A DNA stretch of 64,000 nucleotides from NCBI GenBank assembly GCA_014236755.1, contig JACCKY010000002.1:1-64000 (forward strand). Reading direction: 5' to 3'. The DNA is from Candidatus Petromonas tenebris. Its GTDB lineage: Bacteria; Bacillota; Clostridia; Peptostreptococcales; Caminicellaceae. Made by a program: the position numbers and the translations under genes. Shown here one piece after another: positions 1,682 to 28,436 of the stretch; the stretch's first letter is position 1; every line of letters starts with the position of its first letter. The notes beneath the pieces were generated by a model. It had not been told where the DNA came from, did not search any database, and saw nothing but the letters and a program-made list of their open reading frames with translations.

Positions 1682-2473
1682 TTGATTGCAGAAATAAAAG
1701 GCAAGATAAGTTCAACAGGTTCAAACCTTAGTGAACGGTTAGAAGATAAACTCACAGGGGACTTTTTTGGTGCTTTAAGATATATTCCATTTAATAAAGC
1801 CACAAAAAATATTCTATTAAATACTAACATTCTAAGAGAAGATTTTTCATATGTGCTTGAGGTTATCAATGCACTGGATATTGATTATTGGGATAGTAAC
1901 ATTCGGTTTTGGCCTTATGATTCTTTGGGGGAGTTAGATGTCTTACTTGAATTTGAAGATATAATAATAGGTATTGAAGTAAAGTTATACAGCGGATTAT
2001 CTTCTAATGATGATGTTGATAATTCAGATTGTGATTGTGTGATGGAAAGCAATCATCAATTATCCCGAGAGTCGAGAATACTAAAGAAAAAAATAGCAGG
2101 TACTAATAAATCGGCATTATTAATATTTATTGCACCAGAATATACTTGTTATCCTATTTGTAAAGAGGCTTATGAGAGAAATATTATCGAAGATAATGTT
2201 ATTCTTGGATATCTATCGTGGGAAGAAATATTAGTTGCTCTTGAAAAAATAGTCAATACAGAGAAATTGAACAAATATGAAGAATTAATAATAAAAGATT
2301 TTATCGTATTATTAAAAAGGAAGGGGCTGGAACGATTTAAGAGTTTTGACTTTGAATGTCAGAATATAAATCGTGAATTATGGTTCCAGTTTAACACTAA
2401 AAAAAATATAGATATAGATTTTATTTCTTTTAATCAAGACATTACAATGGAGGGTTATTATGAATTTAGGTGA
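1682..2473 (+). CDS. PD-(D/E)XK nuclease-like protein
   Basis: About 263 residues. A PD-(D/E)XK core is visible: D86 in GELDVLLEF and E99-V-K101 in GIEVKLYSG, followed by an NHQLSRESRIL helix typical of the superfamily. These fit a metal-dependent DNA nuclease, but the exact family is unknown to me. Start: TTG 1682 is preferred, 4-5 bases after AGGTGAT; GTG 1673 is the alternative. It is first of four co-directional genes and overlaps the next by 14 bp, so the two are probably translationally coupled. With the recombinase upstream and the integration module downstream, a defence or genome-maintenance role is plausible but inferred. Confidence 0.65.
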   Translation: MIAEIKGKISSTGSNLSERLEDKLTGDFFGALRYIPFNKATKNILLNTNILREDFSYVLEVINALDIDYWDSNIRFWPYDSLGELDVLLEFEDIIIGIEVKLYSGLSSNDDVDNSDCDCVMESNHQLSRESRILKKKIAGTNKSALLIFIAPEYTCYPICKEAYERNIIEDNVILGYLSWEEILVALEKIVNTEKLNKYEELIIKDFIVLLKRKGLERFKSFDFECQNINRELWFQFNTKKNIDIDFISFNQDITMEGYYEFR

Positions 2474-3035
2474 GAATATCAAAAATGCATTTGATGTTGT
2501 AAGGAAAACATATGAAAATGTAGATAAATTAATGAAATTCTGTGATTCTATTGCCAATGATTGTGGGTATGAGGCTGTAACTGATAAGTTTTTAAGGTAT
2601 AAATCAGATTCATATTATGGAGGATGGTTTATTGATAGTTTCATAAAGTTATATCAATCGGAAAAGGATAAAGTATTAGAAAACGATTGGAAAAATGGAC
2701 CTGTATTTGTAATGGAATTAAACTTTGAGGATATACCAACAGTTTACTTGTCTAAATTTGAATATGATAACATCTCCGATTGGTCTAAAGGAGTATCTCC
2801 AACAGAACATTGGGGTTTTTCAGAACCAATAGACTGCCAAGGAAGTGGGTTTAAGGAAAAGAATTTAGATAAAAAAGATGGATATTATGTTTCTGAACCT
2901 GAAACTGAAAATGTTCAGAGTAAGTATTGGGGGATTAAAAGAGTTGTTTATACAACTTTTGATTTATTACAGTTAAATTCAAATAATATTTTAGAAAAAG
3001 TGTTTGGTGAGTTTGATACATTAAGAAACTTATAA
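2460..3035 (+). CDS. Unknown protein coupled to the PD-(D/E)XK gene
   Basis: 191 residues, not recognised. The ATG lies inside the upstream gene with GGAGGG just before it, giving a 14-bp overlap and so probable coupling. The protein is acidic and soluble-looking, without signal peptide or membrane segment. It is rich in W/Y/F clusters (YYGGWFIDSF, SKYWGIKRVVYTTFDLL), which suggests a compact alpha/beta fold. The tight overlap suggests a partner, specificity factor or immunity-type companion of the nuclease-like protein; that is inference from arrangement only. Confidence 0.6.
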   Translation: MNLGENIKNAFDVVRKTYENVDKLMKFCDSIANDCGYEAVTDKFLRYKSDSYYGGWFIDSFIKLYQSEKDKVLENDWKNGPVFVMELNFEDIPTVYLSKFEYDNISDWSKGVSPTEHWGFSEPIDCQGSGFKEKNLDKKDGYYVSEPETENVQSKYWGIKRVVYTTFDLLQLNSNNILEKVFGEFDTLRNL

Positions 3036-3088
3036 ATATGTAAGTAATTAACTAAGATGCACAACTTTATATGTGGAGGGAAATTACT

Positions 3089-3844
3089 ATGGCTGATATT
3101 AATAACCCATCATTATTAATGCCACCAGATAGATATGTTACACTACGAGAGCAGTATGACTATAATTCACCAGACTGTACATTTGAGATTATTCAAACTG
3201 GTAACTTATATAATGCTGGGAAATTTGTTGGTATATTTGCAAGAGAAATACCAAGTGCAAAGCCTGAGGGTGTAAATCTTAGGCGGTTTGAAAATATAGT
3301 TCAGGAAGTGTTTCAGGATTGTTATGCTGCATTTGCCTCTAATAGTTTTACTGATATTCATATAGAAAATTTAAAACAAATATCTTCAGCCATTATATAT
3401 TGGAAAATGTCAAGTCAGGGTGGGCGTGCCAAGTTAAAGATGGAGAACCTGCAATCGAAATGGAATAATGATACAGTAAAACAGTTGCTAGATGCTTATG
3501 TAAAAAAGGATATGTCACTTTTTCGGATTGGAGGAGTTAGAGTACCAACCGCAACAGCATTTATGAGGTTTCTGTTTCCAGATGATTTCGGAATAATGGA
3601 TTCCCGTGTAGTAGGTAAATATACACAACCAAATGGTATAACTACTTTGAGCCTAAGAAATGATGGATACATTAACGATACGAAACAGAATATTGAAAAG
3701 TATGACACAGAATATATAGCCTTTCTTCGTAATGAAGCGGAACTTTTAAACAAGTTAAATGTAAAATTTAAAGATGTTGATGCAAAGGGAGTTGTTGTTT
3801 CTACAGGATTTCGTGCTTGTGATATTGAAATGGCACTCTTTTAA
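3089..3844 (+). CDS. Unknown protein with a helix-hairpin-helix/glycosylase-like segment
   Basis: 251 residues from ATG 3089 (GGAGGG eight bases upstream). The segment FRIGGVRVPTATAFMRF-LFPDDFGIMDSRV resembles the GxG-TAS helix-hairpin-helix plus P-D-x-F-x-I-x-D-x-R-V pattern of OGG-like DNA glycosylase relatives, and a C-terminal R-x-x-D-x-E-x-A-L (residues about 242-250) also recurs in that unnamed group. No catalytic lysine can be assigned with confidence. The 53-bp gap from the preceding gene fits one operon. Tentatively a DNA-binding or base-recognising protein in the island cargo. Confidence 0.5.
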   Translation: MADINNPSLLMPPDRYVTLREQYDYNSPDCTFEIIQTGNLYNAGKFVGIFAREIPSAKPEGVNLRRFENIVQEVFQDCYAAFASNSFTDIHIENLKQISSAIIYWKMSSQGGRAKLKMENLQSKWNNDTVKQLLDAYVKKDMSLFRIGGVRVPTATAFMRFLFPDDFGIMDSRVVGKYTQPNGITTLSLRNDGYINDTKQNIEKYDTEYIAFLRNEAELLNKLNVKFKDVDAKGVVVSTGFRACDIEMALF

Positions 3845-3879
3845 TCAGGTACTAACTATGTAAAAAGGAGGACCTGAAA

Positions 3880-4473
3880 ATGAATAAAATAGATGATCGT
3901 GAAAAGATTAGGATTCTTTTTGAATTATTAGAAAATACCATAAAAGAAAAGTTTAAATATGTAGGAAAAAGAAAATGGGGAAATCCATCGGGTAATCAGC
4001 AGGAATTAGATGTTTATGAAATTGAAGATGGAGTTAATAAAATTTGGCTCTCTACTACAGAATGGTGTAATGCTTCTTCAGGTGAAATTAATAGATGTTG
4101 TATTATAACCACATTGCCGGATTATAACAGGAGAAATACTTTAGGACAGATTTTTGAAATGAATATGCCTTACCATTTTTCAAAATTATTTAATACTCGA
4201 GTATATGAGGAAGGTAATGAAGTTGAAATAAGAAATTATGGGAAATTTACAATAGGCAGAAGAGGATTAAAGAAACAGTATTTTTTTGACTACCTTAGAG
4301 AAAATGGCTTTGAAGATGAGATTAAATATGATGAAGAAGGAAAAGAATATATCAGCGTTATAAAAATAAAGGATAACAATATTAATTCTCAATATTTAAA
4401 ATATAGGTTGATAAAATGGACTAATTTGCTTAAAGAATTTAAAGATTATTATAGAAAACTTTTTGAGCATTAA
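3880..4473 (+). CDS. Unknown protein, last gene of the island cargo
   Basis: 197 residues from ATG 3880 with a strong AAGGAGG upstream. Lysine-rich, soluble-looking, no motif I recognise; the N-terminal half has the look of a small alpha/beta domain and the C-terminus is helical (SQYLKYRLIKWTNLLKEF). It follows the 3089 gene by 35 bp on the same strand and is closed by a strong bidirectional terminator, making it the fourth gene of the cargo unit. Function unknown. Confidence 0.55.
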   Translation: MNKIDDREKIRILFELLENTIKEKFKYVGKRKWGNPSGNQQELDVYEIEDGVNKIWLSTTEWCNASSGEINRCCIITTLPDYNRRNTLGQIFEMNMPYHFSKLFNTRVYEEGNEVEIRNYGKFTIGRRGLKKQYFFDYLRENGFEDEIKYDEEGKEYISVIKIKDNNINSQYLKYRLIKWTNLLKEFKDYYRKLFEH

Positions 4474-4536
4474 GAAGATGATTCAAGATTTGAGAAGTAT
4501 AAATTTGTTTTTAGTATTAAAGGCTTTATTGTTAGC

Positions 4537-4588
4537 AAAATAAAAGAGTTGTAAGAATCATTATGGATTCTTACAACTCTTTTATTTT
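4537..4588. terminator. Strong bidirectional terminator between convergent genes
   Basis: A 23-bp inverted repeat (4537-4559 with 4566-4588) around a 6-nt loop, with A-tract on one side and T-tract on the other. It separates the cargo operon from the convergent XRE gene and would serve both. Confidence 0.9.
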
Positions 4589-4596
4589 TGAACTGT

Positions 4597-5325
4597 TTAC
4601 TCTTCAACTAACTCCTTTAATAGCCTTAAAGCCTTTTGGTTATTGGTGTTATTAATATTAATGTAAGTTTCAAGTAATTTAATTCTTTCTTCCTTAGATT
4701 TAATTTGCTTTGTATCTAATGTATCTAAATCAACCCTACTTTTAAAACTAAATCCTCCTTTTATGCATTCATCGATTAATAACGATAGGCTTGATAACTC
4801 ATCAATATCAAACGATTCAAGTTTTAGTATTTCTAATAACTGAAAGAGAATTTTACAAATGAGATTAAGTTTCATTAAATCCTCTTTTGAAAAATAGTTT
4901 TTAGAATCATCTTCTAAGTCAATCAGATTTACTAATATTCCAAAAAACATTATATAACTGTTCACATATAGTTCTTTATTTTTTAATTTCTTATCCGCAT
5001 TGATATTTAAATCACTGCTATCGATAGAATATACATGCGATAAATTATGCAGTACCTTTTTTGCATTAGATTCAATTAATTCAGATATAAAGTTTTCACT
5101 ACATTTATCTAATAAGTAGTCAGTAAAACCCATCATATAATCAATTGAAGTGTTGTAAAATTCTGCGAATCTCTTGAGGGTATTAAAATTAGGTCTTCTG
5201 TCACCTGTTTCATATTTAATAATTGAATTGTAAGGTATTCCAATAAGTTCTGATAATTCTTTTTGAGATAAGCCATGATAATTTCTAAGTTCTTTAAGTT
5301 TTTCACAAAATTTATTTTCTTCCAA
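4597..5325 (-). CDS. XRE-family repressor of the integrated element
   Basis: 242 residues starting at TTG 5325, with AGGAGGTG seven bases upstream; longer in-frame extensions lack a ribosome site. Residues about 8-62 form a classic helix-turn-helix (LSQKELSELIGIPYNSIIKYE). The C-terminal 170 residues are an alpha-helical domain I cannot assign and show no LexA/CI-type Ser-Lys protease motif. Its own promoter (TATAAT 5347-5352, TTGCAC 5370-5375, reverse strand) overlaps one operator, implying autorepression, and a divergent promoter serves the genes to the right. It probably keeps the excisionase/integrase module silent. Confidence 0.75.
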   Translation of the reverse strand: MEENKFCEKLKELRNYHGLSQKELSELIGIPYNSIIKYETGDRRPNFNTLKRFAEFYNTSIDYMMGFTDYLLDKCSENFISELIESNAKKVLHNLSHVYSIDSSDLNINADKKLKNKELYVNSYIMFFGILVNLIDLEDDSKNYFSKEDLMKLNLICKILFQLLEILKLESFDIDELSSLSLLIDECIKGGFSFKSRVDLDTLDTKQIKSKEERIKLLETYININNTNNQKALRLLKELVEE

Positions 5326-17598: not shown

Positions 17599-17684
17599 GC
17601 GGATGTGGCGGAATCGGCAGACGCGCTATCTTGAGGGGGTAGTGAGCAACGCTCGTATGGGTTCAAATCCCATCATCCGCACCA
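17599..17684 (+). tRNA. tRNA-Leu (anticodon GAG)
   Basis: 86 nt with encoded CCA. Acceptor GCGGATG/CATCCGC, D-loop AATCGGCAGACG, anticodon arm CTATCTTGAGGGGGTAG with anticodon GAG, long variable arm and T-arm GGGTTCAAATCCC. It reads CUC/CUU, matching the CUU specifier proposed for the leuS T-box. Confidence 0.95.
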
Positions 17685-17689
17685 ATTAA

Positions 17690-17885
17690 TTAATTTCTGA
17701 AATATTCGTCAAGCTCATATTTTGAACCTACATTATAAAAGAGGGAGTTCAATATTTAGGTGTGAATATGTACTTTCAATTGAAACTTATACAAGATATG
17801 GAAAGCGATAGAAGCATCTGTGAGGACACCCACCTATCGAGACGGATAGGTGTCAAAATTTGAGCAGCGGTATTTTGGATACTAT
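17690..17885 (+). ncRNA. ssrS: Probable 6S RNA
   Basis: Gene-free segment right after tRNA-Leu with a long interrupted duplex. GCTCATATTTTGA (17713-17725) pairs with TCAAAATTTGAGC (17853-17865, one mismatch), and AAATA (17700-17704) pairs with TATTT (17871-17875). The 5' strand (TTTCTGAAATATTCGTCAAG) resembles the 5' end of known 6S RNAs (AUGUUCGCAAGC), and GCGGTATTTTGG the 3' end. An internal hairpin CACCTATC/GATAGGTG (17831-17852) fits the 3' central-bubble hairpin. 6S RNA mimics open promoter DNA and binds sigma-A holoenzyme. Ends are approximate. Confidence 0.7.
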
Positions 17886-18366: not shown

Positions 18367-18526
18367 CATAATTTTAAACTTTTTCATATTTAGTAGAAAA
18401 AATCACCGATGAAAAGAATATTATACAGTTATGTAAATATATTCACCTTCGTATTTAATTTATTATCACATATAATATGTTATAATATATTTATTAAAAA
18501 GTTTTATTTACGTAAGGGGGGCCTTG

Positions 18527-19441
18527 ATGAGACGAAATAGGACAAAATCTAGAAAAAAAAATAAGTCTAACAACATACTTGTTATTTTAGCATTTATTAT
18601 TTTACTACCTGCTGTATCTATTTCTATAGGTTATTTTGGTGTTAAATACTTTATAGTTCCAAAATTTCTCTCAACAAATACATATGTAGAAAATAAGAAA
18701 GAAAACAAAGTTGGAGGTCAAGGGAATGAAGATAGTGAAAGCAGGATAGAAGAAAATACACAGCAAAGTAATGGTGGTCAAGAAAAAGCTCAAACAAATG
18801 TAAATAAACAGGCTGAAAAAAAACCGTATACATTTGAGCTGCCGCCACTAAGTATTCTTAACATACAGGTAGGGAGTTTTAGTGATATGGACTATGCCCA
18901 GGCCCAAATTAAGCAGTTAAACGATAAGGGGCTAGAAGGTTATGTTGTAAAATCCAATGATAAATATAAGGTTATGGTTATGTCATTTTTAGATAGACAA
19001 AATGCTGAGAAATACAGTGAAAAGATTAGAGAGTACTATTCAGATGCATTTATTTCACCGATAAACATACCTGTAAGAAGTATATCCTATGGAGAAAGTG
19101 ATAAAGCATATGCTGAAGCTGCGTCTAAAGGAATAAATAATCTGATGAAGTTTTATAAAAGCTATTCAGATTTTTTATTAGAAAACGATTTAGCCAAGAT
19201 TGACTCAAGAAAACTAAATGAATTTATAGATAGTGAAGTAAAAAAACTCGATGCCATTAAAGATGCTATTTCCAAAATTAGTCCATCCGATGACTTTTCC
19301 AAATTCAACAAAAACCTTACTATCATAGTTGAAAATTCAAGGACTGAGCTTGAAACTTTAAAGAAATCTGGTATATCAAAAAAAGAAACATTGTGGGAAA
19401 TCTACATGGAAAGCTTGAATAGTTATGCTGATATAATATAA
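18527..19441 (+). CDS. SPOR-domain membrane protein
   Basis: 304 residues from ATG 18527 (AAGGGGGG upstream). Basic N-terminus, one membrane helix (about 17-40), a low-complexity charged linker, then a SPOR domain (about 105-185: ILNIQVGSFSDMDYAQAQ, LEGYVVKSNDKYKVMV). The last 100 residues are helical. SPOR domains bind denuded glycan strands at division or spore septa. It stands upstream of the redox-signalling cassette on the same strand, 25 bp from it, but is functionally a cell-envelope gene. Confidence 0.88.
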   Translation: MRRNRTKSRKKNKSNNILVILAFIILLPAVSISIGYFGVKYFIVPKFLSTNTYVENKKENKVGGQGNEDSESRIEENTQQSNGGQEKAQTNVNKQAEKKPYTFELPPLSILNIQVGSFSDMDYAQAQIKQLNDKGLEGYVVKSNDKYKVMVMSFLDRQNAEKYSEKIREYYSDAFISPINIPVRSISYGESDKAYAEAASKGINNLMKFYKSYSDFLLENDLAKIDSRKLNEFIDSEVKKLDAIKDAISKISPSDDFSKFNKNLTIIVENSRTELETLKKSGISKKETLWEIYMESLNSYADII

Positions 19442-19466: not shown

Positions 19467-19829
19467 ATGTTAATAAAGGACATTAAAGAATTATTAGATG
19501 CTGAATTTTTGGCAGGATATGAATACGCTGAACGTGAGGTAAATGCTGCGTTTGGATGTGATTTAATGAGTGATGTTTTAGCCTTTGTGGATGATAAAGT
19601 AGTCCTCTTAACAGGGCTTACAAATCCACAAGTTATTAGAACCGCTGAAATGCTAGATTTAAATGCTATAGTATTTGTGAGGGGGAAAATTCCACCTAAA
19701 GAAGTTATAGATTTGGCAAATGAGATGAAAATTGTCCTTTTAGCCACTAATCACACCCTCTATACAGCATGTGGTATTTTATTTAGTAATGGACTTAAAG
19801 GTATAACTATTGGAGGAGTTGAAGGCTAA
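19467..19829 (+). CDS. DRTGG-domain protein, first copy
   Basis: 120 residues, ATG 19467. Looks like a stand-alone DRTGG-type domain, as found attached to phosphotransacetylase and CBS proteins: LLDAEFLAGYEYAEREVNAA, LTGLTNPQVIRTAEMLDLN, VFVRGKIPPKEVIDLA. These are presumed ligand-sensing modules; the ligand is unknown. It heads a six-gene string with HATPase, hydrogenase-like, DRTGG, PHP and HATPase genes, and its stop is one base from the next ATG. Confidence 0.78.
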   Translation: MLIKDIKELLDAEFLAGYEYAEREVNAAFGCDLMSDVLAFVDDKVVLLTGLTNPQVIRTAEMLDLNAIVFVRGKIPPKEVIDLANEMKIVLLATNHTLYTACGILFSNGLKGITIGGVEG

Positions 19830-19830
19830 C

Positions 19831-20268
19831 ATGGATTCAAATAAAAATAATATAGGCATTAAGCTAGAATATGAAGTAAAGAAGGATGATTTTACTAGGG
19901 CAGGAGAAGCATCCAGTAATATAAAAAAAGTTCTTAGACAACTTGGAATAGATTCAGATGTGATAAGGAGGACAGCAATTGCAACTTATGAAGCTGAAAT
20001 AAATATAGTTATCCATTCAGAAGGTGGAACTATAACCGTTTATATAAAACCAGACAGAATTGAAATGATAGCAGAAGATAGTGGACCAGGTATTGAAGAT
20101 GTAAGACTTGCAATGCAGGAAGGATTTTCAACGGCATCAAATAAGATAAGGGAGCTTGGATTTGGAGCAGGAATGGGATTGCCTAATATGAAAAAATATA
20201 CTGATGAATTTTACATTGATTCTCAGAAGGGTGGAAGTACTACTGTAAAAATGACAATATATATATAA
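19831..20268 (+). CDS. HATPase (RsbW/SpoIIAB-like anti-sigma kinase fold)
   Basis: 145 residues from ATG 19831. A minimal GHKL ATPase: ATYEAEINIVIHSEGG (N-box), IAEDSGPGIED (G1), FGAGMGLPNMKKY (G2). It has no histidine-kinase dimerisation domain, so it resembles anti-sigma or switch kinases of the RsbW/RsbT kind. Genetic linkage with the hydrogenase-like sensor suggests it transmits a redox signal by protein phosphorylation; the target is unknown. Confidence 0.85.
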   Translation: MDSNKNNIGIKLEYEVKKDDFTRAGEASSNIKKVLRQLGIDSDVIRRTAIATYEAEINIVIHSEGGTITVYIKPDRIEMIAEDSGPGIEDVRLAMQEGFSTASNKIRELGFGAGMGLPNMKKYTDEFYIDSQKGGSTTVKMTIYI

Positions 20269-20282
20269 TTGGGGGAAAATTC

Positions 20283-21548
20283 ATGAAAAATTATTGGCAC
20301 TCTGTTACTTTGGAAAGTGAACTCTGTAATGGGTGTACTAACTGTTTGAGAAGATGTCCTACTGAGGCTATTAGAATTAGAAATGGCAAAGCGAAAATTA
20401 TTAAGGAAAGGTGCATTGATTGTGGTGAATGTATTAGAGTATGTCCATATCATGCTAAAAAAGCCCTAGCTAATGATTTAAGTATTCTAAATAATTACAA
20501 ATATAAAATTGCCTTGGTTTCCCTTCCATTATACGGTCAGTTTTGTCTAGAAAAGGATATAAATAAGGTTTTTAACTGTTTTTATGACATTGACTTCGAT
20601 TTTGTATATGATGTAGCTTATGCTGCAGATATATTAACAGTACTTCAGAAAGACCTTGTGAAAAGTAGTGAGATTCCAAAGCCATTGATAGCAACATTGT
20701 GTCCAGCAATAACTAGACTTATACAGATTCGATTTCCTTCTTTAATTGATCATATAATTCCCTTTGAATCTCCTATGGAGATAACAGCTAGAATGGCTAA
20801 AAGAGAGGTTGCTGAAAAGCTGGGAGTTAGCATGGATGAAATCGGAGCATTTTATATTGCTCAATGTCCTGCTAAAATAACAAGTATTAATAAACCTCTT
20901 GGAATAAAAAAATCCTATGTTGATGGAGCTATTCCCATATCTAAACTCTACTCTAAGCTACTCAAAATATATAAAGAGATCGATAACACGAAAAAAATAC
21001 AGAAAGCATCAGGTAAGGGGATTGGTTGGGCTAGAGTAGGTGGACAAAGTTTTGCTATAGGCATAGATAACTACTTGGCTGTTGACGGTATAGAAAACGT
21101 TATCAAGGTATTGGAGGAAATAGAACTTGGCAAACTGAATAATATTGACTTTTTTGAAGGATATGCCTGCATAACAGGTTGTGTTGGGGGACCATTAAAT
21201 GTTGAGAACCCATTTATTGCTAAAAGTAGAATTAGAAAGATAGCAAGTTCTTTTGGTGATTCAGAGGTAGATAAAAAAGAAGCCTATAGGATGCTGGAGG
21301 AAGGAAAGATAGGATTAACAGAAAAAATTAAACCATTAAGTATTTTAAAACTGGATTCAAATATACAAAGAGCAATAGAAAAGATGGAATTTTTAGAAAA
21401 AATTTACAAAAAACTTCCCGGTATTGATTGTGGTTCCTGCGGAGCACCAACTTGTCATGCTATGGCAGAGGATGTTGTAAGAGGAAAGGCTTCAATAGAT
21501 GACTGTGTTATAAAACAGAGGAAAAAAATATCAGGTAGCAGGGGGTAG
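20283..21548 (+). CDS. HsfB-like [FeFe]-hydrogenase relative, putative redox sensor
   Basis: 421 residues. Two ferredoxin-type clusters near the N-terminus (CNGCTNCLRRCP, CIDCGECIRVCP), then a Fe-only-hydrogenase C-terminal-like domain. The three H-cluster signatures are altered: TLCPA instead of TSCCPxW, AQCPAK instead of MPCxxKxxE, YACITGCVGGP instead of MACxxGCxxGGG. The four ligand cysteines are kept. The C-terminus adds a CGSCGAPTCHAMAED cluster domain as in RnfB-like proteins. Catalytic hydrogenase is unlikely; a sensory role is inferred from family and from the flanking kinase-fold genes. Confidence 0.85.
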   Translation: MKNYWHSVTLESELCNGCTNCLRRCPTEAIRIRNGKAKIIKERCIDCGECIRVCPYHAKKALANDLSILNNYKYKIALVSLPLYGQFCLEKDINKVFNCFYDIDFDFVYDVAYAADILTVLQKDLVKSSEIPKPLIATLCPAITRLIQIRFPSLIDHIIPFESPMEITARMAKREVAEKLGVSMDEIGAFYIAQCPAKITSINKPLGIKKSYVDGAIPISKLYSKLLKIYKEIDNTKKIQKASGKGIGWARVGGQSFAIGIDNYLAVDGIENVIKVLEEIELGKLNNIDFFEGYACITGCVGGPLNVENPFIAKSRIRKIASSFGDSEVDKKEAYRMLEEGKIGLTEKIKPLSILKLDSNIQRAIEKMEFLEKIYKKLPGIDCGSCGAPTCHAMAEDVVRGKASIDDCVIKQRKKISGSRG

Positions 21549-21552
21549 TATA

Positions 21553-21888
21553 ATGATAGTAAAGGATTTGGTAGAGAAATTTAATTTTAAGCTTTTAACA
21601 GAGAGGGATGGTCTTGAAAAAAGTGTAGACGGGGTTTACTGTTGTGACTTGCTTAGCTGGGTGATGTCCCATGCTAAAAATAACGATGCGTGGATTACTG
21701 TTCAAACCCATGTAAATGTTGTAGCAGTTGCTTCCCTTTTAAATCTTTCATGTGTAATAATTCCTGAGTCAATTGAAGTTGATGAAGATACGATAGCAAA
21801 GGCAAAGAAAGAAGGGATTCCAATACTTTCAACAGACTTAAATGCATATGGAATATTTTCGAAGTTTTATGAAGCTGGGATGAGGTAA
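21553..21888 (+). CDS. DRTGG-like protein, second copy
   Basis: 111 residues from ATG 21553, four bases after the hydrogenase-like gene. Related to the 19467 protein: LKLLTERDGLEKSVDGVYCC-type N-terminus, central ITVQTHVNVVAVASLLNLSC and C-terminal LSTDLNAYGIFSKFYEAG. The pair may form a heterodimer or bind the same ligand; this is inference. Its stop directly abuts the PHP gene start. Confidence 0.72.
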   Translation: MIVKDLVEKFNFKLLTERDGLEKSVDGVYCCDLLSWVMSHAKNNDAWITVQTHVNVVAVASLLNLSCVIIPESIEVDEDTIAKAKKEGIPILSTDLNAYGIFSKFYEAGMR

Positions 21889-22608
21889 ATGAATCTCTAC
21901 TATGATTTTCACATCCATACTGCTCTTTCTCCATGTGGAGATAGGGATATGACTCCAAACAACATAGTAAATATGGCTACCATAAAAGGTCTTGACGCCA
22001 TCGCAATAACTGACCACAATACAGTTCGAAATTGTCTGCCCTGTGTGGAAGTAGCAAAGAAAACGGATTTAACTGTTATTCCAGGTATGGAAATACAAAC
22101 CAAGGAAGAAGTTCATTTACTATGCATGTTTAGAAATATTGAAACAGCTATTTTATTTGAAAAAGCAATAGATAGTCATATGATTAAATTACAAAATAAT
22201 CCGAAGTTTTTCGGTAAGCAGCTAATCTTTGATAAGTATGATAATGTGATAGGTGAAGAAAAAAGACTACTTTCTTCATCAGTAAATATGAGTATAAATG
22301 AAGTTTTTCATACTCTTTCTGATATGGGTGGTATAGTTATACCGGCCCATATAGATAAAAAGGCATATAGCATAATTTCAAACTTAGGTTTTATGCCTAT
22401 GGATTTAGGAATAACTACTGTTGAATTTTCAAAGGGGTGTAATAAAGAAAAATTTATAAAAAGTAATAATTATATTAAAAAATATAGAATCATTAGAAAT
22501 TCTGATGCCCACTATTTAGGAGATATTTCTGAAAGAACCAACTATTTAAATGTTAAGAAAAAAGATATACATGAAATTTTTAAGGTTTTAAGCTCACAAG
22601 TCATATAA
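21889..22608 (+). CDS. PHP-domain phosphoesterase
   Basis: 239 residues. Metal-site motifs of the PHP family: DFHIHTALSPCGD, AITDHN, GMEIQTKEEVH, VIPAHID and RNSDAHYLGDI. Members are metal-dependent phosphoesterases or nucleases (YciV/TrpH-like); the substrate here is unknown. Locked into the cassette, so it could make or degrade a signalling nucleotide or reset phosphorylation, as inference. Confidence 0.88.
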   Translation: MNLYYDFHIHTALSPCGDRDMTPNNIVNMATIKGLDAIAITDHNTVRNCLPCVEVAKKTDLTVIPGMEIQTKEEVHLLCMFRNIETAILFEKAIDSHMIKLQNNPKFFGKQLIFDKYDNVIGEEKRLLSSSVNMSINEVFHTLSDMGGIVIPAHIDKKAYSIISNLGFMPMDLGITTVEFSKGCNKEKFIKSNNYIKKYRIIRNSDAHYLGDISERTNYLNVKKKDIHEIFKVLSSQVI

Positions 22609-22630
22609 ATAGGCTGGAAAGGTTGAAAAT

Positions 22631-23173
22631 ATGAAAGAATTGTCTATGCATATATTAGATATAGCTCAAAATTCTATAGCTGCTAAAGCATCATTGATTG
22701 AAATAGAGGTAATAGAAGATTTAAAAAAAGATAAACTTACTATAACAATCAAAGACAATGGCAAAGGGATGAATAAAGAACTGTTAAAAAAAGTGACAGA
22801 TCCTTTTTTTACAAGTCGTACCACACGAAAGGTTGGTTTGGGTATCCCCATGTTTAAGGCTGCAGCTGAGGCATGTGATGGCAGCTTTAGAGTATCTTCA
22901 AGTCCAGGTGTGGGTACATGTGTAGAAGCAGTTTTTAAGCACAGCCATATCGATAGAGCTCCTTTAGGAAATATGGTTGATACAATAGTAACCCTTTTGA
23001 TTTCTGATCCCAAAATAGATTTTATATATAGACATTACAAAAATGGACAAAAATATACTTTAAATACTATAGAAATAAAGAATGTGCTTAGAGAAGTACC
23101 AATAAACAACATGGAAGTAATAGAGTGGATAAAAAATAATATAAAACAAGGATTAGAAGATTTAGAATCTTGA
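22631..23173 (+). CDS. HATPase-domain protein, second copy
   Basis: 180 residues from ATG 22631. Starts with ELSMHILDIAQNSIAA (N-box region), then IKDNGKGM (G1), TTRKVGLGIPMFKAAAEACD (G2) and a C-terminal extension of about 70 residues. Histidine-kinase-like ATP fold without H-box. Last gene of the cassette; the 190-bp gap to rnfC contains a TTGACA-like element but no clear terminator, so partial read-through into rnf is possible. Confidence 0.82.
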   Translation: MKELSMHILDIAQNSIAAKASLIEIEVIEDLKKDKLTITIKDNGKGMNKELLKKVTDPFFTSRTTRKVGLGIPMFKAAAEACDGSFRVSSSPGVGTCVEAVFKHSHIDRAPLGNMVDTIVTLLISDPKIDFIYRHYKNGQKYTLNTIEIKNVLREVPINNMEVIEWIKNNIKQGLEDLES

Positions 23174-23362
23174 AAAATTGTTACTTCCTTCACAATGATT
23201 GACAATAAATAATAATCAATGTACCATATAGTAGTGGGCCTTCGATTTTTATTAATGATTTAAAATTTTTTAATATAAGGATTATACTGTATACAGCATA
23301 ATGTTCAAGAAGGTTTTTCGACAATATTCTACACTTTATATTAAAAAAAGGGGTGAAGTTAA

Positions 23363-24685
23363 ATGGGTCTTTTATCTTTTAGAGGTGGTGTTCATCCTCC
23401 TCATTTTAAAGAACCAACAGAAAGAGTAAAAATTGAAAAGGCCAATGAGCCAAAAGTTGTTACTATTCCCCTTAGCCAACATATAGGCGCGCCTTGTAAG
23501 CCACTTGTGAAAAAAGGTGATAAGGTTAAAGTTGGCCAAAAAATTGGAGAGACAGATTCTTTTGTTTCAGCACCGGTACACAGCAGTGTTTCAGGTGAAG
23601 TAAAAGAGGTAAAAGAAAAACTTACTCCAAGTGGGGAAGTTCTATGTGTAGTTATCGAATCAGACGGCTTAAATGAGCTTCATGAAAGCGTTGTCCCTAA
23701 AGGAGATATTGAAAATCTCAGTCCAGATGAAATTAAGAATATTATCAAAGAAGCTGGGATAGTAGGTATGGGAGGAGCAGGCTTTCCAACCCATGTTAAA
23801 TTATCTCCGCCACCGGAAAATAAAGTCGATACCATTATATTAAATGGTGCAGAATGCGAACCATATTTAACGGCTGACCACAGGCTAATGCTTGAAAATC
23901 CAGGAGATATTATTTACGGATTAAAGGCAATGATGAAGGCCACAGGTGTGGATAAAGCTTATATTGGTATTGAGGACAACAAACCTGATGCGATAAAGAT
24001 TATGAGCGAAGCAGCAAAAGATGAACAAAATATCGAAGTAGTTGGTTTGAAAACAAAATATCCCCAAGGGGCAGAGAAACAGCTGATATATGCATGTACA
24101 AGGAGGGAAGTTCCATCTGGAGGGCTTCCAATGGCTGTAGGAGTAATAGTAAACAATGTTGGAACTGCTGCAGCAATAGCTAATGCAATAAAAACTGGAA
24201 TGCCTCTTATCGAAAGAATTTGTACCATAACAGGAAAAGGGGTCAAAGAACCTAAAAATCTTTTGATAAAAGTAGGTACTAGCTTTAAAGAAATAATTGA
24301 GCAGTGTGGAGGGTATAATGGTAAGCCCGGCAAAATTATTATGGGTGGACCGATGATGGGTCTTGCACAGTATAGTGATGAAATACCTGCTGTCAAGACA
24401 ACATCTGGAATTCTAATATTTACTCCAGAGGAAGCAAGGCTTCCAAAGCCAAAACCATGTATAAAGTGTGGTAAATGTGTAGAGATATGTCCTGCATTTT
24501 TGCAACCTTTGTATATAAGTGCATATTCTCTTAACAATATGCATGAAACTGCGGAAAAATATAATGCACTAGATTGTATTGAATGTGGTTCATGTTCTTT
24601 CATTTGCCCTTCAAAAAGACCGCTTTTACAATCAATCCGTGTATCAAAGCGAGAAATCCTTGCAAAGAAAAGGAAGACAAAATAG
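23363..24685 (+). CDS. rnfC: Rnf complex subunit C
   Basis: 440 residues, ATG 23363. Characteristic RGGVHPPHFKEPT start, a flavin/NADH fold (GMGGAGFPTHVKL, GAECEPYLTADHR) and two 4Fe-4S sites (CIKCGKCVEICP, CIECGSCSFICP). RnfC is the peripheral subunit that exchanges electrons with NAD. First gene of a complete rnfCDGEAB operon that couples ferredoxin:NAD electron transfer to a Na+ or H+ gradient, the main energy converter in such anaerobes. Confidence 0.97.
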   Translation: MGLLSFRGGVHPPHFKEPTERVKIEKANEPKVVTIPLSQHIGAPCKPLVKKGDKVKVGQKIGETDSFVSAPVHSSVSGEVKEVKEKLTPSGEVLCVVIESDGLNELHESVVPKGDIENLSPDEIKNIIKEAGIVGMGGAGFPTHVKLSPPPENKVDTIILNGAECEPYLTADHRLMLENPGDIIYGLKAMMKATGVDKAYIGIEDNKPDAIKIMSEAAKDEQNIEVVGLKTKYPQGAEKQLIYACTRREVPSGGLPMAVGVIVNNVGTAAAIANAIKTGMPLIERICTITGKGVKEPKNLLIKVGTSFKEIIEQCGGYNGKPGKIIMGGPMMGLAQYSDEIPAVKTTSGILIFTPEEARLPKPKPCIKCGKCVEICPAFLQPLYISAYSLNNMHETAEKYNALDCIECGSCSFICPSKRPLLQSIRVSKREILAKKRKTK

Positions 24686-24701
24686 ATAAGGGGGTAATAT
24701 G

Positions 24702-25643
24702 ATGGAAACAAGGTTGATTGCTTCTTCATCGCCTCATATAAGGTCAGATGAATCAATTAGTAAAATAATGAGAGATGTAGTTATTGCTTTACTGCCTGCA
24801 ACACTTGCAGGACTATATTACTTTCGATTAGGTGCAGCAAAGGTAATATTCTTTTCAGTTTTAGCAGCGGTGATAACGGAAGCTGTAGTTCAAAAAATAA
24901 GAAAACAGGAAGTTACAATTAACGACTGGAGTGCTGTGGTGACAGGTTTGTTACTAGCATTCAATATACCGGCTTCAGCACCATGGTGGCTTCCAGTGAT
25001 AGGTTCAGTTTTCGCAATAGCTCTAGTAAAACATGCTTTTGGGGGGTTAGGACATAATTTTATGAATCCTGCATTGGCTGCTCGTGCTTTTCTTTTGGCA
25101 TCATGGCCAATAGAAATGACAAAATGGGTAAAACCAGGAGCGGATGCTGTAAGTACTGCAACTCCTTTAGCACTACTTAAGGGTGTTGAGGTTGCAGACC
25201 AATCGATGCCCTCTATGTTTGATTTGATTATAGGAAATGTTGGCGGGAGTATAGGTGAAACATCTGCTATCCTTTTAATTTTAGGAGGTATTTACCTTGT
25301 CTATAGAGGAGTTATTACACCTAGGATTCCAGTTGTATATATTGCAACAGTAGCAGTTTTAACTTTTATTTTTGGAGGCTTTAGCTTTGGAAATGCAATT
25401 TATCATGTGTTTGCAGGAGGATTAATGCTAGGTGCCATATTTATGGCTACGGACTATGCATCATCCCCAGTTACTCCTAAAGGACAAATGATTTTTGCTA
25501 TAGGCTGTGGAGTATTGACGAGTGTTATAAGATTATATGGAGGCTATCCTGAAGGGGTGTCGTATTCAATACTACTTATGAACGTAGCTACTCCATTGAT
25601 CGATAAATATACAAGCCCAAGAGTATTTGGGGAGGTGAAGTAA
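24702..25643 (+). CDS. rnfD: Rnf complex subunit D
   Basis: 313 residues (ATG 24702; ATG 24699 equally possible). Polytopic membrane protein with repeated hydrophobic helices, and an STATPL motif at the expected covalent FMN threonine. GHNFMNPALAARAFLL and FMATDYASSPVTPKGQ are family signatures shared with NqrB. Separated from rnfC by a 16-bp gap. Confidence 0.96.
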   Translation: METRLIASSSPHIRSDESISKIMRDVVIALLPATLAGLYYFRLGAAKVIFFSVLAAVITEAVVQKIRKQEVTINDWSAVVTGLLLAFNIPASAPWWLPVIGSVFAIALVKHAFGGLGHNFMNPALAARAFLLASWPIEMTKWVKPGADAVSTATPLALLKGVEVADQSMPSMFDLIIGNVGGSIGETSAILLILGGIYLVYRGVITPRIPVVYIATVAVLTFIFGGFSFGNAIYHVFAGGLMLGAIFMATDYASSPVTPKGQMIFAIGCGVLTSVIRLYGGYPEGVSYSILLMNVATPLIDKYTSPRVFGEVK

Positions 25644-25644
25644 C

Positions 25645-26220
25645 GTGCGTGAGATTGTTAAACTGGGAGTAATATTATTAATTATATGTTCAATTGCAGC
25701 TTTGTTTTTAGGTTTAACCTATGAATTTACAATAGATCAGATACTTGCTCAAAGAAAAGCTATAAATGAACAAGCACGTAAAGAGGTTTTACCAGAAGCT
25801 CAAGAATTTAAACCTATTGATGAAGATGTTTTAAATAAAATAATAAGTGAAAACGATACGATAAAGGAAATTTATGGGGGTTACAAAGAAGGCAATATTA
25901 TAGGTTATGCGATCAAAACAGCTCCTCAGGGATATGGTGGACCTGTAGAGGTTATAACGGGAATCAGTAAGGATGGAAAAATTAGTGGTGTGAGAATAGG
26001 TAATCACCTTGAAACGCCAGGTCTAGGTGCTAATGCAACTAATCCTTCTTTCTATAAACAATATCACAATAAAAGTATAGACAAGAAACTTGAAGTAGTT
26101 AAAGCCAGTCCGGGAGAAAATGAAATTCAGGCCCTTTCAGGAGCAACGATTACGTCTGATGCTGTTACGGATGGAGTAAATTACTCTATTGAGGCTTTTA
26201 AAACGATAACAGGCAAGTAA
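25645..26220 (+). CDS. rnfG: Rnf complex subunit G
   Basis: 191 residues, GTG start one base after rnfD. One N-terminal membrane helix, then the FMN-binding domain ending LSGATITSDAV, where the threonine carries covalent FMN. It relays electrons on the outer membrane face. Confidence 0.95.
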   Translation: MREIVKLGVILLIICSIAALFLGLTYEFTIDQILAQRKAINEQARKEVLPEAQEFKPIDEDVLNKIISENDTIKEIYGGYKEGNIIGYAIKTAPQGYGGPVEVITGISKDGKISGVRIGNHLETPGLGANATNPSFYKQYHNKSIDKKLEVVKASPGENEIQALSGATITSDAVTDGVNYSIEAFKTITGK

Positions 26221-26236
26221 TTACGGAGGTGAGAAA

Positions 26237-26839
26237 GTGAAACCATTTAAAGCTTTAATCAATGGATTATTTAAAGAAAATCCTGTTTTTATACAACTTT
26301 TAGGTATGTGCCCTACCTTGGCCGTAACTAACTCTGCAATAAATGGTATGGGTATGGGACTTGCCACGACTGCGGTTCTATTAGGTTCCAATACAGTCAT
26401 TGCTGTTTTTAGAAAGTTTATACCTAGCAAAATCAGAATACCATCATTCATAGTAGTTATTGCTAGTTTCGTTACGATTGTTGGTTTGATTATGGAAGGT
26501 TATTTTCCGGCTTTGTATAAATCACTGGGATTATTTATACCCTTAATTGTCGTTAACTGCCTTATTCTAGCAAGGGCAGAGGCTTTTGCATCGAAGAATA
26601 GAGTAATTAGCTCAGTTGCCGATGGGTTAGGTATGGGACTTGGATTTACATGGGCATTAGTGCTTTTAGGTGCAGTCAGAGAGTTCTTCGGTACAGGTAA
26701 TATTTTTGGAATCAATTTACTAGGCGAATCCTTTAAGCCTGCTTTGATAATGATATTGCCTCCAGGTGCATTTTTAGCCCTTGGTATTTTATTAGCAATT
26801 TACAATGCAATAAAAATTAAAAAGATGGCTAAAGCTTAA
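26237..26839 (+). CDS. rnfE: Rnf complex subunit E
   Basis: 200 residues, GTG start with GGAGGTG upstream. Six hydrophobic helices; LGMCPTLAVTNSAING and VNCLILARAEAFAS contain the cysteines proposed to bind a membrane-embedded iron-sulfur centre. Homologue of RnfA and NqrD. Confidence 0.95.
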   Translation: MKPFKALINGLFKENPVFIQLLGMCPTLAVTNSAINGMGMGLATTAVLLGSNTVIAVFRKFIPSKIRIPSFIVVIASFVTIVGLIMEGYFPALYKSLGLFIPLIVVNCLILARAEAFASKNRVISSVADGLGMGLGFTWALVLLGAVREFFGTGNIFGINLLGESFKPALIMILPPGAFLALGILLAIYNAIKIKKMAKA

Positions 26840-26851
26840 GGGGGGAGATTT

Positions 26852-27433
26852 ATGGAAAATTTCGGTATTTTTGCAATACTTATAAGTTCTATATTAGTTA
26901 ATAATTTTGTTTTATCTAGATTCTTAGGTATATGTCCTTTTCTAGGTGTATCTAAACAGGTTGAAACAGCTTTTGGAATGGGTATGGCTGTTACATTTGT
27001 TATGACTTTGGCTGGAGTTATTACCTATTTTGTTCAGAAATTTATTTTAGTTCCATTAGACATTGTTTACCTTCAATGGGTTGCGTTTATACTGGTTATA
27101 GCTTCGCTGGTACAATTTGTTGAAATTGTTCTACAAAAGATCAGTCCTACTTTGTATCAAGCCCTAGGAGTATTTTTACCACTTATTACTACAAATTGTG
27201 CTGTTTTAGGATTAGCCCTATTAAATATACAATATAATTTTAATTTAGTTCAAACTATATTTCATTCAATAGGTGCTGCAATAGGCTTCTCACTTGCAAT
27301 AGTATTATTTGCAGGTATAAGGGAAAAACTTGAGATCGCAGATGTGCCTGTTCCTTTTAAAGGCTTTCCAATAGCACTAATTACGGCAAGTCTAATGTCC
27401 ATAGCTTTTTTAGGCTTTGCAGGACTTGTTTAA
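26852..27433 (+). CDS. rnfA: Rnf complex subunit A
   Basis: 193 residues. Six membrane helices in inverted topology to RnfE, with [11 protein letters not shown] and [12 protein letters not shown] carrying the paired cysteines. Homologue of NqrE. 12 bp after rnfE, 19 bp before rnfB. Confidence 0.96.
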
Positions 27434-27452
27434 TTAGAAGGGGTGATTAAAT

Positions 27453-28436
27453 ATGGATTTAAACAATATACTTTTAGCTAGTGTAAGCTTAGGTGGAATG
27501 GGTCTTTTGTTTGGGGCTAGCCTAGCTTATGCTTCACAGAAGTTTGCAGTTGAAATAGACCCTAAGGCCCTTGCAATTAGAGATGTTTTACCAGGGGCCA
27601 ACTGTGGTGCCTGTGGATTTCCGGGGTGTGACGGTTTTGCCAATGCAGTAGCAGATGGCAGAGCACCTGCAAATGGATGTCCTGTTGGTGGTGCAGAATG
27701 TGCTCAGAAAGTTGCTGAAATCATGGGAGTTGCCGTTGAAGAGACAGTAAAAAAAGTTGCCAGAGTAGTATGTAAAGGTGACAATCAAAAATGTAAAGAG
27801 AAGTTCGAGTATTTCGGAATCCAAGATTGTAAAGCAGCTGCAATGATTGGTGGCGGAAGTAAGAGCTGTAGCTATGGATGTTTAGGACTGGGAACATGTG
27901 TAAAGGCGTGTCAGTTCGATGCAATAGAGATAACTGATGGAAAAATTGCCAGAATAATTCCTGAAAAATGTACTGCTTGCGGTAAGTGTATAGAGGTTTG
28001 TCCTAAACAGGTCATCCATTTTGTCCCATTTGAACAGGATGTAGTCGTTGACTGTAATAATGAGGAGTTTGGAAAGACAGTTAAGGAAAAATGTAGCGTA
28101 GGATGTATTGGATGTAAGATATGTGTTAAGGCATGTCCTTTTGATGCCATGGAATTTTCCAACAATCTGGCTAAAATTAATTATGAAAAGTGTACAAACT
28201 GCATGTTGTGTGCAGAAAAGTGTCCTACAAAGGCAATATATGCTAACTTTGAAAAAAGGAGAAAAGCAGAAATTATTGAGGAAGATTGTGTAGGATGTAC
28301 TCTTTGTAAAAAAGCTTGTCCAGTTGGTGCAATCGAAGGGGAACTCAAACAAAAGCACAAAGTAAATGAAGAACTATGTATTGGTTGTGGTGCTTGTGAA
28401 CAAAAATGTCCTAAGAAAACAATAAAGATGAAGTAG
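27453..28436 (+). CDS. rnfB: Rnf complex subunit B, multi-cluster ferredoxin
   Basis: 327 residues. N-terminal membrane helix, the CGACGFPGC-x-GFA cluster domain, then many CxxCxxCxxxC sites (CTACGKCIEVCP, CIGCKICVKACP, CTNCMLCAEKCP, CVGCTLCKKACP, CIGCGACEQKCP). It carries more clusters than the E. coli form, as usual in clostridia. It is the entry point for ferredoxin electrons. Last gene of the operon. Confidence 0.97.
   Translation: MDLNNILLASVSLGGMGLLFGASLAYASQKFAVEIDPKALAIRDVLPGANCGACGFPGCDGFANAVADGRAPANGCPVGGAECAQKVAEIMGVAVEETVKKVARVVCKGDNQKCKEKFEYFGIQDCKAAAMIGGGSKSCSYGCLGLGTCVKACQFDAIEITDGKIARIIPEKCTACGKCIEVCPKQVIHFVPFEQDVVVDCNNEEFGKTVKEKCSVGCIGCKICVKACPFDAMEFSNNLAKINYEKCTNCMLCAEKCPTKAIYANFEKRRKAEIIEEDCVGCTLCKKACPVGAIEGELKQKHKVNEELCIGCGACEQKCPKKTIKMK

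Follow-up and report, generated by a model that had tools for sequence, protein, structure and literature searches.

The DNA analysed here, hereafter the window, is a stretch of 64,000 nucleotides from Candidatus Petromonas tenebris (contig JACCKY010000002.1) that carries, on the + strand at positions 19467–23173 and just 5′ of rnfCDGEAB, a six-gene cassette with the order DRT1, HAT1, HYD, DRT2, PHP and HAT2. The intergenic gaps are only 1, 14, 4, 0 and 22 bp. An initial annotation, made from the letters alone, had described two DRTGG-like proteins, two HATPases without an H-box, a PHP phosphoesterase and an iron-sulfur hydrogenase homologue tightly packed at this place, and this description was borne out, as a Pfam scan confirmed all of the families and a profile scan found no HisKA (H-box) domain in HAT1 or HAT2. 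The features of the locus are the following.

18524–19441, + strand: SPOR-domain protein, hydrophobic over a stretch close to the N-terminus (PF05036, 42.5 bits)
19467–19829, + strand: DRT1, a stand-alone DRTGG domain (PF07085, 27.6 bits, over the cut-off)
19831–20268, + strand: HAT1, a SpoIIAB/RsbW-like GHKL ATPase (PF13581, 43.5 bits)
20283–21548, + strand: HYD, a [FeFe]-hydrogenase homologue (PF02906, 89.8 bits) with a pair of Fer4 motifs and, at its C-terminus, a PF04060 FeS domain
21553–21888, + strand: DRT2, a second stand-alone DRTGG domain (PF07085, 30.1 bits)
21889–22608, + strand: PHP phosphoesterase (PF02811, 40.5 bits)
22631–23173, + strand: HAT2, a GHKL ATPase without H-box (PF02518, HATPase_c, 61.5 bits)
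23174–23362, + strand: spacer between HAT2 and rnfC with a promoter-like element and a dyad, the pattern being found also in relatives
23363–28436, + strand: rnfCDGEAB, ferredoxin:NAD+ oxidoreductase, candidate target of the cassette (from the open reading frames and the cassette-rnf order in relatives)

The rnf genes thus start 189 bp 3′ of the cassette. The best start of HAT1 is the ATG at 19831; the TTG at 19810 chosen by the open reading frame caller is probably not the true one. No Rfam matches were found in the cassette or in the HAT2-rnfC spacer.

By its motifs and its place in the tree, HYD is assigned to the PAS-less Group D/M2e, the TamHydS family. The HYD clade was strongly supported and stood apart from HydA, from the HfsB-like and HfsD-like proteins and from a further, fourth homologue encoded in the same genome. 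The HfsB-like identity proposed at the outset had to be rejected: the Pfam scan found no PAS domain in HYD, and a separate hfs-like operon is present at another place in the genome (contig C28 of genome G000, locus L180; G and L numbers denote genomes and loci throughout). HYD has in common with TamHydS of Thermoanaerobacter mathranii (PMC8163306, PMC10407848) and with Cthe_0335 and Teth39_1463 (PMC3561251) the two N-terminal [4Fe-4S] motifs, the H-domain, the C-terminal motif Cx2Cx4Cx16C (C383, C386, C391 and C408 in the window) and the location beside a histidine-kinase-like ATPase; the lack of a PAS domain and of C299, the equivalents of E289 and D265, and the motif DFFEG(L/Y)AC are also shared. 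HYD of the window, however, lies beside rnf and not next to a bifurcating hydrogenase. In an alignment of 104 relatives, the cysteines of the N-terminal motifs (C15–C25 and C44–C54) were 97–100% conserved, and the cubane cysteines C140, C195, C296 and C300 together with those of the FeS domain 99–100%. The H-cluster lysine, K198, is also kept in the window.

At three positions HYD of the window departs from TamHydS: E252 is replaced by Gln, A137 by Leu, and the conserved Ser/Thr (position of M353) by Ala. The altered H-cluster motifs that had been noticed in the protein starting at 20283 were real. The position of C299 (CpI numbering) is L139, and Cys was never seen there among the relatives. 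That of M353 is A193, in place of the Ser or Thr of the TamHydS family, present in 95% of the cassette relatives. E252 and S249 of TamHydS correspond to Q255 and V252, so that the TamHydS proton path is not preserved, while E289 and D265 are both kept (E292 and D268). The TamHydS positions were placed through the published mutagenic primers (E252 in GG-E-AFGTF, E289 in DFF-E-GLAC) and not through the full TamHydS sequence; the spacing of the window motifs, GGQSFAIG and DFFEGYAC, is equal to that of TamHydS. In TamHydS the replacements E252V and E252D leave <0.01% of residual H2 oxidation (PMC10407848). Gln255 was found in 33 of 100 relatives and implies four changes when the tree is computed with these columns left out. 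The proton-relay Glu was thus lost at least four times, and this repeated loss, with Gln in the window, is what is new here. The 16 proteins in which C299 is replaced by a bulky residue and the 13 that lack the H-cluster lysine were all among the 33 Gln255 proteins, a nested pattern without exception that nevertheless falls short of significance because it rests on four events. A correlation of Q255 with the Rnf context was also tried but, with 2 changes on the tree, did not reach significance. The structure model of HYD (five-sequence alignment, predicted local distance difference test score, pLDDT, of 60) was too poor for the analysis of pocket or fold.

Homologues of HYD (E ≤ 1e-40) were present in 69 of the 148 genomes of the order and in 160 of the 398 Bacillota genomes. 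When the neighbourhoods of 104 loci, including the window, were compared, HYD was found within the cassette in 76, of which 52 had each of the six genes as a separate gene, and the median gaps among the first five genes were −1, 14.5, −4 and −1 bp. The recurrence of this gene order is far beyond chance, and the earlier remark that the cassette recurs in clostridia holds. At the remaining loci, which form a derived clade on the tree, HYD stands mostly alone or with one DRTGG gene. The stand-alone HYD of this clade adjoins an nqrBCDEF-like operon in L087, L089, L090, L092, L094, L102 and L103, with no NqrA/RnfC-like gene seen there.

The neighbours of the cassette vary. Within 9.5 kb of 77 non-duplicate cassette loci, we found HydA and HydB in 44, HydA only in one, and HydA, HydB and rnf together in seven, making the electron-bifurcating HydABC the usual neighbour (52/77). 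Seven loci had rnf only, seven a HydB-like protein without HydA and 11 no such neighbour (several of these on cut contigs). Overall, a subunit of a ferredoxin/NAD(P) complex was located within this range in 66 of the 77 loci. The cassette-rnf order is homologous in L009, L071–L074, L155 and L168, and the rnf-only setting has two origins on the tree, one in the family of the window and its neighbour and the other in L155/L168. Apparent intermediates are the seven loci with cassette, hydABC and rnf, and also L155, in which HAT2 and rnfC are separated by a hyd-type ferredoxin gene. In L162 a molybdopterin formate dehydrogenase takes the place of HydA, and L144 has RseC, NuoEF-like proteins, Rex and an NfnB-like protein near the cassette. 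The neighbours include HydABC, Rnf, formate dehydrogenase and NfnB-like proteins; what they share is a ferredoxin/NAD(P) oxidoreductase and not hydrogen. The alpha subunit of the L162 formate dehydrogenase (2292–4976) appears split into two open reading frames with the break inside the molybdopterin domain, a pattern as from an in-frame selenocysteine TGA. A gene for the Rex repressor was found in 14 of the 104 loci, in seven of them directly 5′ of the cassette, against about one locus expected in a rough estimate that places one rex per 3-Mb genome at random.

Upstream, the SPOR gene of the window ends 25 bp 5′ of DRT1, and the cassette or its transcription unit may start with it. Such a gene was present in 27 of the 104 loci, mostly immediately 5′ of the cassette and often preceded by folC- and valS-like genes. 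Farther upstream, the window has a tRNA-Leu (gag) directly followed by a 6S RNA gene (17599–17885).

The partner proteins point to signalling. HAT1 had its best match in SpoIIAB (TIGR01925, 51 bits, below the curated cut-off) and could be aligned to 1til, 1l0o and 1th8. Its N-box residues E61 and N65, as well as H69 (numbering from TTG 19810), were 100% conserved in 76 sequences, and with this catalytic Glu-x3-Asn we class HAT1, on sequence grounds, as a SpoIIAB/RsbW-like protein kinase of the GHKL fold. DRT1 is its putative ligand-sensing or adaptor partner; among solved structures it comes closest to the CBS-DRTGG region of a Mn-dependent pyrophosphatase (3l2b/3l31, E 0.01). In DRT2, D32, S35, T49 and N55 are 100% conserved. 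The PHP protein has the complete set of metal ligands (H8, H10, D42, H43, E68, H76, H154, D206 and H208), all nine invariant in 68 sequences. HAT2 retains N14 and the glycine boxes and has a conserved C-terminal extension, HxDRxPLG; its model (pLDDT 82) showed a GHKL fold matching MutL, topoisomerase VI and HSP90. In most relatives HAT2 lies between a NuoE-like gene and hydB, and judged by description and position it is likely a relative of HydE of A. woodii (Awo_c27000; PMC3315566), which is also an ATP-binding-domain protein within a hyd operon, although DRTGG, PHP and HYD partners are not described there.

Several loci encode neighbouring members of the cassette as a single protein. DRT1 is fused to HAT1 in six loci, HAT1 to HYD in L167, HYD at its C-terminus to DRT2 in L123 and PHP to HAT2 in L148 and L161, and in L155 two CBS domains precede HAT1. 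These fusions support direct contacts of HYD with HAT1 on one side and with DRT2 on the other. Together with the near-invariant kinase and phosphatase residues and the Rex neighbours, they fit, and thereby support, a predicted signalling cassette. A classical two-component system was considered and rejected, as neither a HisKA nor a receiver domain occurs in the cassette. Partner switches of the SpoIIAB/RsbW type share the GHKL serine-kinase fold and the catalytic E-x3-N; in contrast to them, the cassette proteins include DRTGG and PHP and no STAS antagonist, PP2C or sigma factor (unlinked partners are possible).

Our proposal, to which we give an even chance, is that the cassette is a soluble phospho-switch in which a converted Group D [FeFe]-hydrogenase acts as the sensor, with redox state rather than H2 as the input. 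HYD would be reduced, most probably by ferredoxin, at its two N-terminal [4Fe-4S] clusters and at the [4Fe-4S] that belonged to the former H-cluster; the cluster at its C-terminus would then relay the redox state onward. Through its contacts with HAT1 and DRT2 it would set the kinase activity of HAT1 directly, while DRT1 on the kinase arm and DRT2, probably on the phosphatase arm, would tune or receive the signal as ligand-sensing or adaptor partners. PHP would be the opposing phosphoesterase that reverses the signal, and HAT2, as the ATPase nearest the target, would couple the switch to the adjacent ferredoxin/NAD(P) complex, which is HydABC in the majority of bacteria, Rnf in the window and, in a few cases, formate dehydrogenase or an NfnAB-like complex. 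Which partner and residue would be phosphorylated, in which direction the signal would run and what its output would be, including any effect on Rnf, we infer from this arrangement, as we do the electron source and the opposition of kinase and phosphatase.

The initial annotation had suggested H2/redox sensing. The tie of the cassette to ferredoxin/NAD(P) oxidoreductases is supported; Q255 and L139 weaken H2 sensing, and the loss of the proton-relay residues for H2 turnover in the lineage of the window makes redox state the likely input. A true H2 sensor would have a HYD with a full H-cluster that binds H2 slowly, the H2 pressure acting through the kinases to adjust HydABC or Rnf. In its favour, TamHydS takes up a synthetic [2Fe] cofactor and has high affinity for H2 (PMC8163306), the window retains K198 and the cubane cysteines, most cassettes are beside HydABC, and H2 control of Rnf has been proposed for Vallitalea guaymasensis (PMC6163223). 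We still consider this explanation unlikely, given the losses at E252 (with Gln in the window and a third of the relatives), C299 and M353 and the cassettes beside Rnf, formate dehydrogenase and NfnAB-like complexes. The maturation proteins bear on it in both directions. HydF was over the cut-off in 119 of the 160 HYD-bearing genomes, that of the window included, and not in the other 41. Its absence was dropped as a general proof that there is no H-cluster, because several HydF- and HydG-negative genomes have a HydA with intact motifs, and only genomes without any other PF02906 protein were used. Five genomes of family f49 (G175, G320, G370, G441 and G525), together with G251 and G301, have the cassette HYD as their sole PF02906 protein and lack HydF; HydG was also absent in the two of them tested (G370 and G301), and the K198 position was Gln in the three f49 genomes aligned. 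Retention of the module therefore needs neither a hydrogenase nor H-cluster assembly, and the signal that the cassettes share is probably not H2 but the redox state of ferredoxin/NAD(P). As a separate observation, the single-contig genomes G014, G045 and G381, as well as G435, G167, G035 and others, encode a HydA whose H-cluster motifs are intact, yet have neither HydF above the cut-off nor HydG; their maturases may be divergent, or maturation may follow a different route. The genome of the window has HydF, HydG and active-looking hydrogenases and its HYD keeps K198, so that here either input may apply; its HydABC-type hydA near hydF and hydG (L183:7370–9116, contig C53 of G000) is in two overlapping frames of 315 and 273 amino acids, through a frameshift, a pseudogene or an assembly error.

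The cassette might alternatively serve the assembly or quality control of the adjacent Fe-S complex, the GHKL ATPases, PHP and DRTGG proteins being chaperone-like and HYD an Fe-S scaffold or electron donor. That HAT2 lies within hyd operons and has MutL and HSP90 ATPases among its best folds, that a part in assembly or signalling was suggested for HydE of A. woodii (PMC3315566), and that the cassette has neither regulator nor substrate, would agree with such a role; the intact SpoIIAB-type catalytic Glu of HAT1, whose best matches are anti-sigma kinases, and the CBS/DRTGG sensing-domain fusions and Rex neighbours indicate regulation instead and make it, in our opinion, decidedly unlikely. We are more doubtful still of a nucleotide circuit, in which PHP would cleave a small nucleotide bound by DRTGG (and CBS) domains, HAT1 and HAT2 would respond and HYD would add redox dependence. 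It has in its favour the CBS-DRTGG pyrophosphatase relatives of DRT1, the resemblance of PHP to nucleoside bisphosphate phosphatase and exonuclease families and the CBS-CBS-HAT1 fusion of L155, but these matches are weak and leave the substrate class open, and a synthase for such a nucleotide was not found in the cassette.

Some points weigh against the redox switch itself. HYD of the window may yet hold an H-cluster and bind H2 with no turnover, because K198, the cubane cysteines, HydF and HydG remain. The [FeFe]-hydrogenase genes of C. thermocellum gave no response to methyl viologen (PMC4676874), and HydE of A. woodii has been described only as acting in “assembly or signalling” (PMC3315566). 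The invariant DRTGG serine, which we do not claim as a phosphorylation site, may be purely structural. No DNA-binding protein, phosphorylation substrate or target was identified in the cassette, and rnf seems to be under its own promoter. Before rnfC there is a promoter-like TTGACA-17-TACCAT (23199–23227), its −35/−10 pattern being shared with four relatives (L071–L074), although in a promoter consensus scan the total number of matches was not above that of shuffled sequences. The spacer also contains the dyad TTATACTGTATA, found in three of these four relatives, and a TTGTATACTGTATACTA-like dyad within 23199–23300, also in relatives, is a possible operator of an unlinked regulator; no Rex box was seen by eye before rnf. 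Any control of rnf would therefore be post-translational or through an unlinked regulator, and the control of Rnf by the cassette that had been suggested initially stays a conjecture, with HydABC as the usual neighbour.

The general idea is already published. Reports of 2012 (PMC3561251) and 2013 (PMC3608648) pointed out Group D proteins beside kinases and bifurcating hydrogenases, TamHydS was proposed in 2020 as “putatively sensory” (PMC8163306), and a sensory Group D hydrogenase beside Rnf is also on record (PMC6163223). In the latter report, of 2018, a [FeFe]-hydrogenase of HydDB group C1 and a sensor kinase adjoin Rnf in V. guaymasensis (peg.4370–4378); the DRTGG and PHP partners, the residue losses and the context statistics are absent from that description. 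HfsB/HydS (group C/M2f; PMC5707799, PMC11837493) is likewise a hydrogenase-derived putative sensor linked to kinase or phosphatase genes, but it has a C-terminal PAS domain and belongs to another operon. In a literature search that did not cover subscription papers such as Calusinska 2010, neither the DRTGG/PHP partners nor the fusions nor the repeated loss of H2 residues had been described.

The question addressed is how anaerobes sense the over-reduction of ferredoxin and rebalance H2, NADH and ion pumping. Group D hydrogenases were previously without known signal-transduction partners, and the fusions name direct ones, a kinase on one side and a DRTGG protein on the other. The residue losses, in turn, distinguish the reading of H2 from the reading of redox state in a way that is predictive for the purified protein. 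More tentatively, and with clearly less than an even chance, the repeated loss of H2 chemistry may have turned the “sensory hydrogenases” of this family into pure Fe-S redox sensors that drive a DRTGG/GHKL-kinase/PHP switch over the main ferredoxin-NAD(P) hub of the cell, whether HydABC, Rnf, formate dehydrogenase or an NfnAB-like complex. If true, this would explain why “sensory hydrogenase” cassettes are kept in genomes without a hydrogenase, and would provide a lever on the flow of electrons in acetogens and in ethanol- or hydrogen-producing clostridia.

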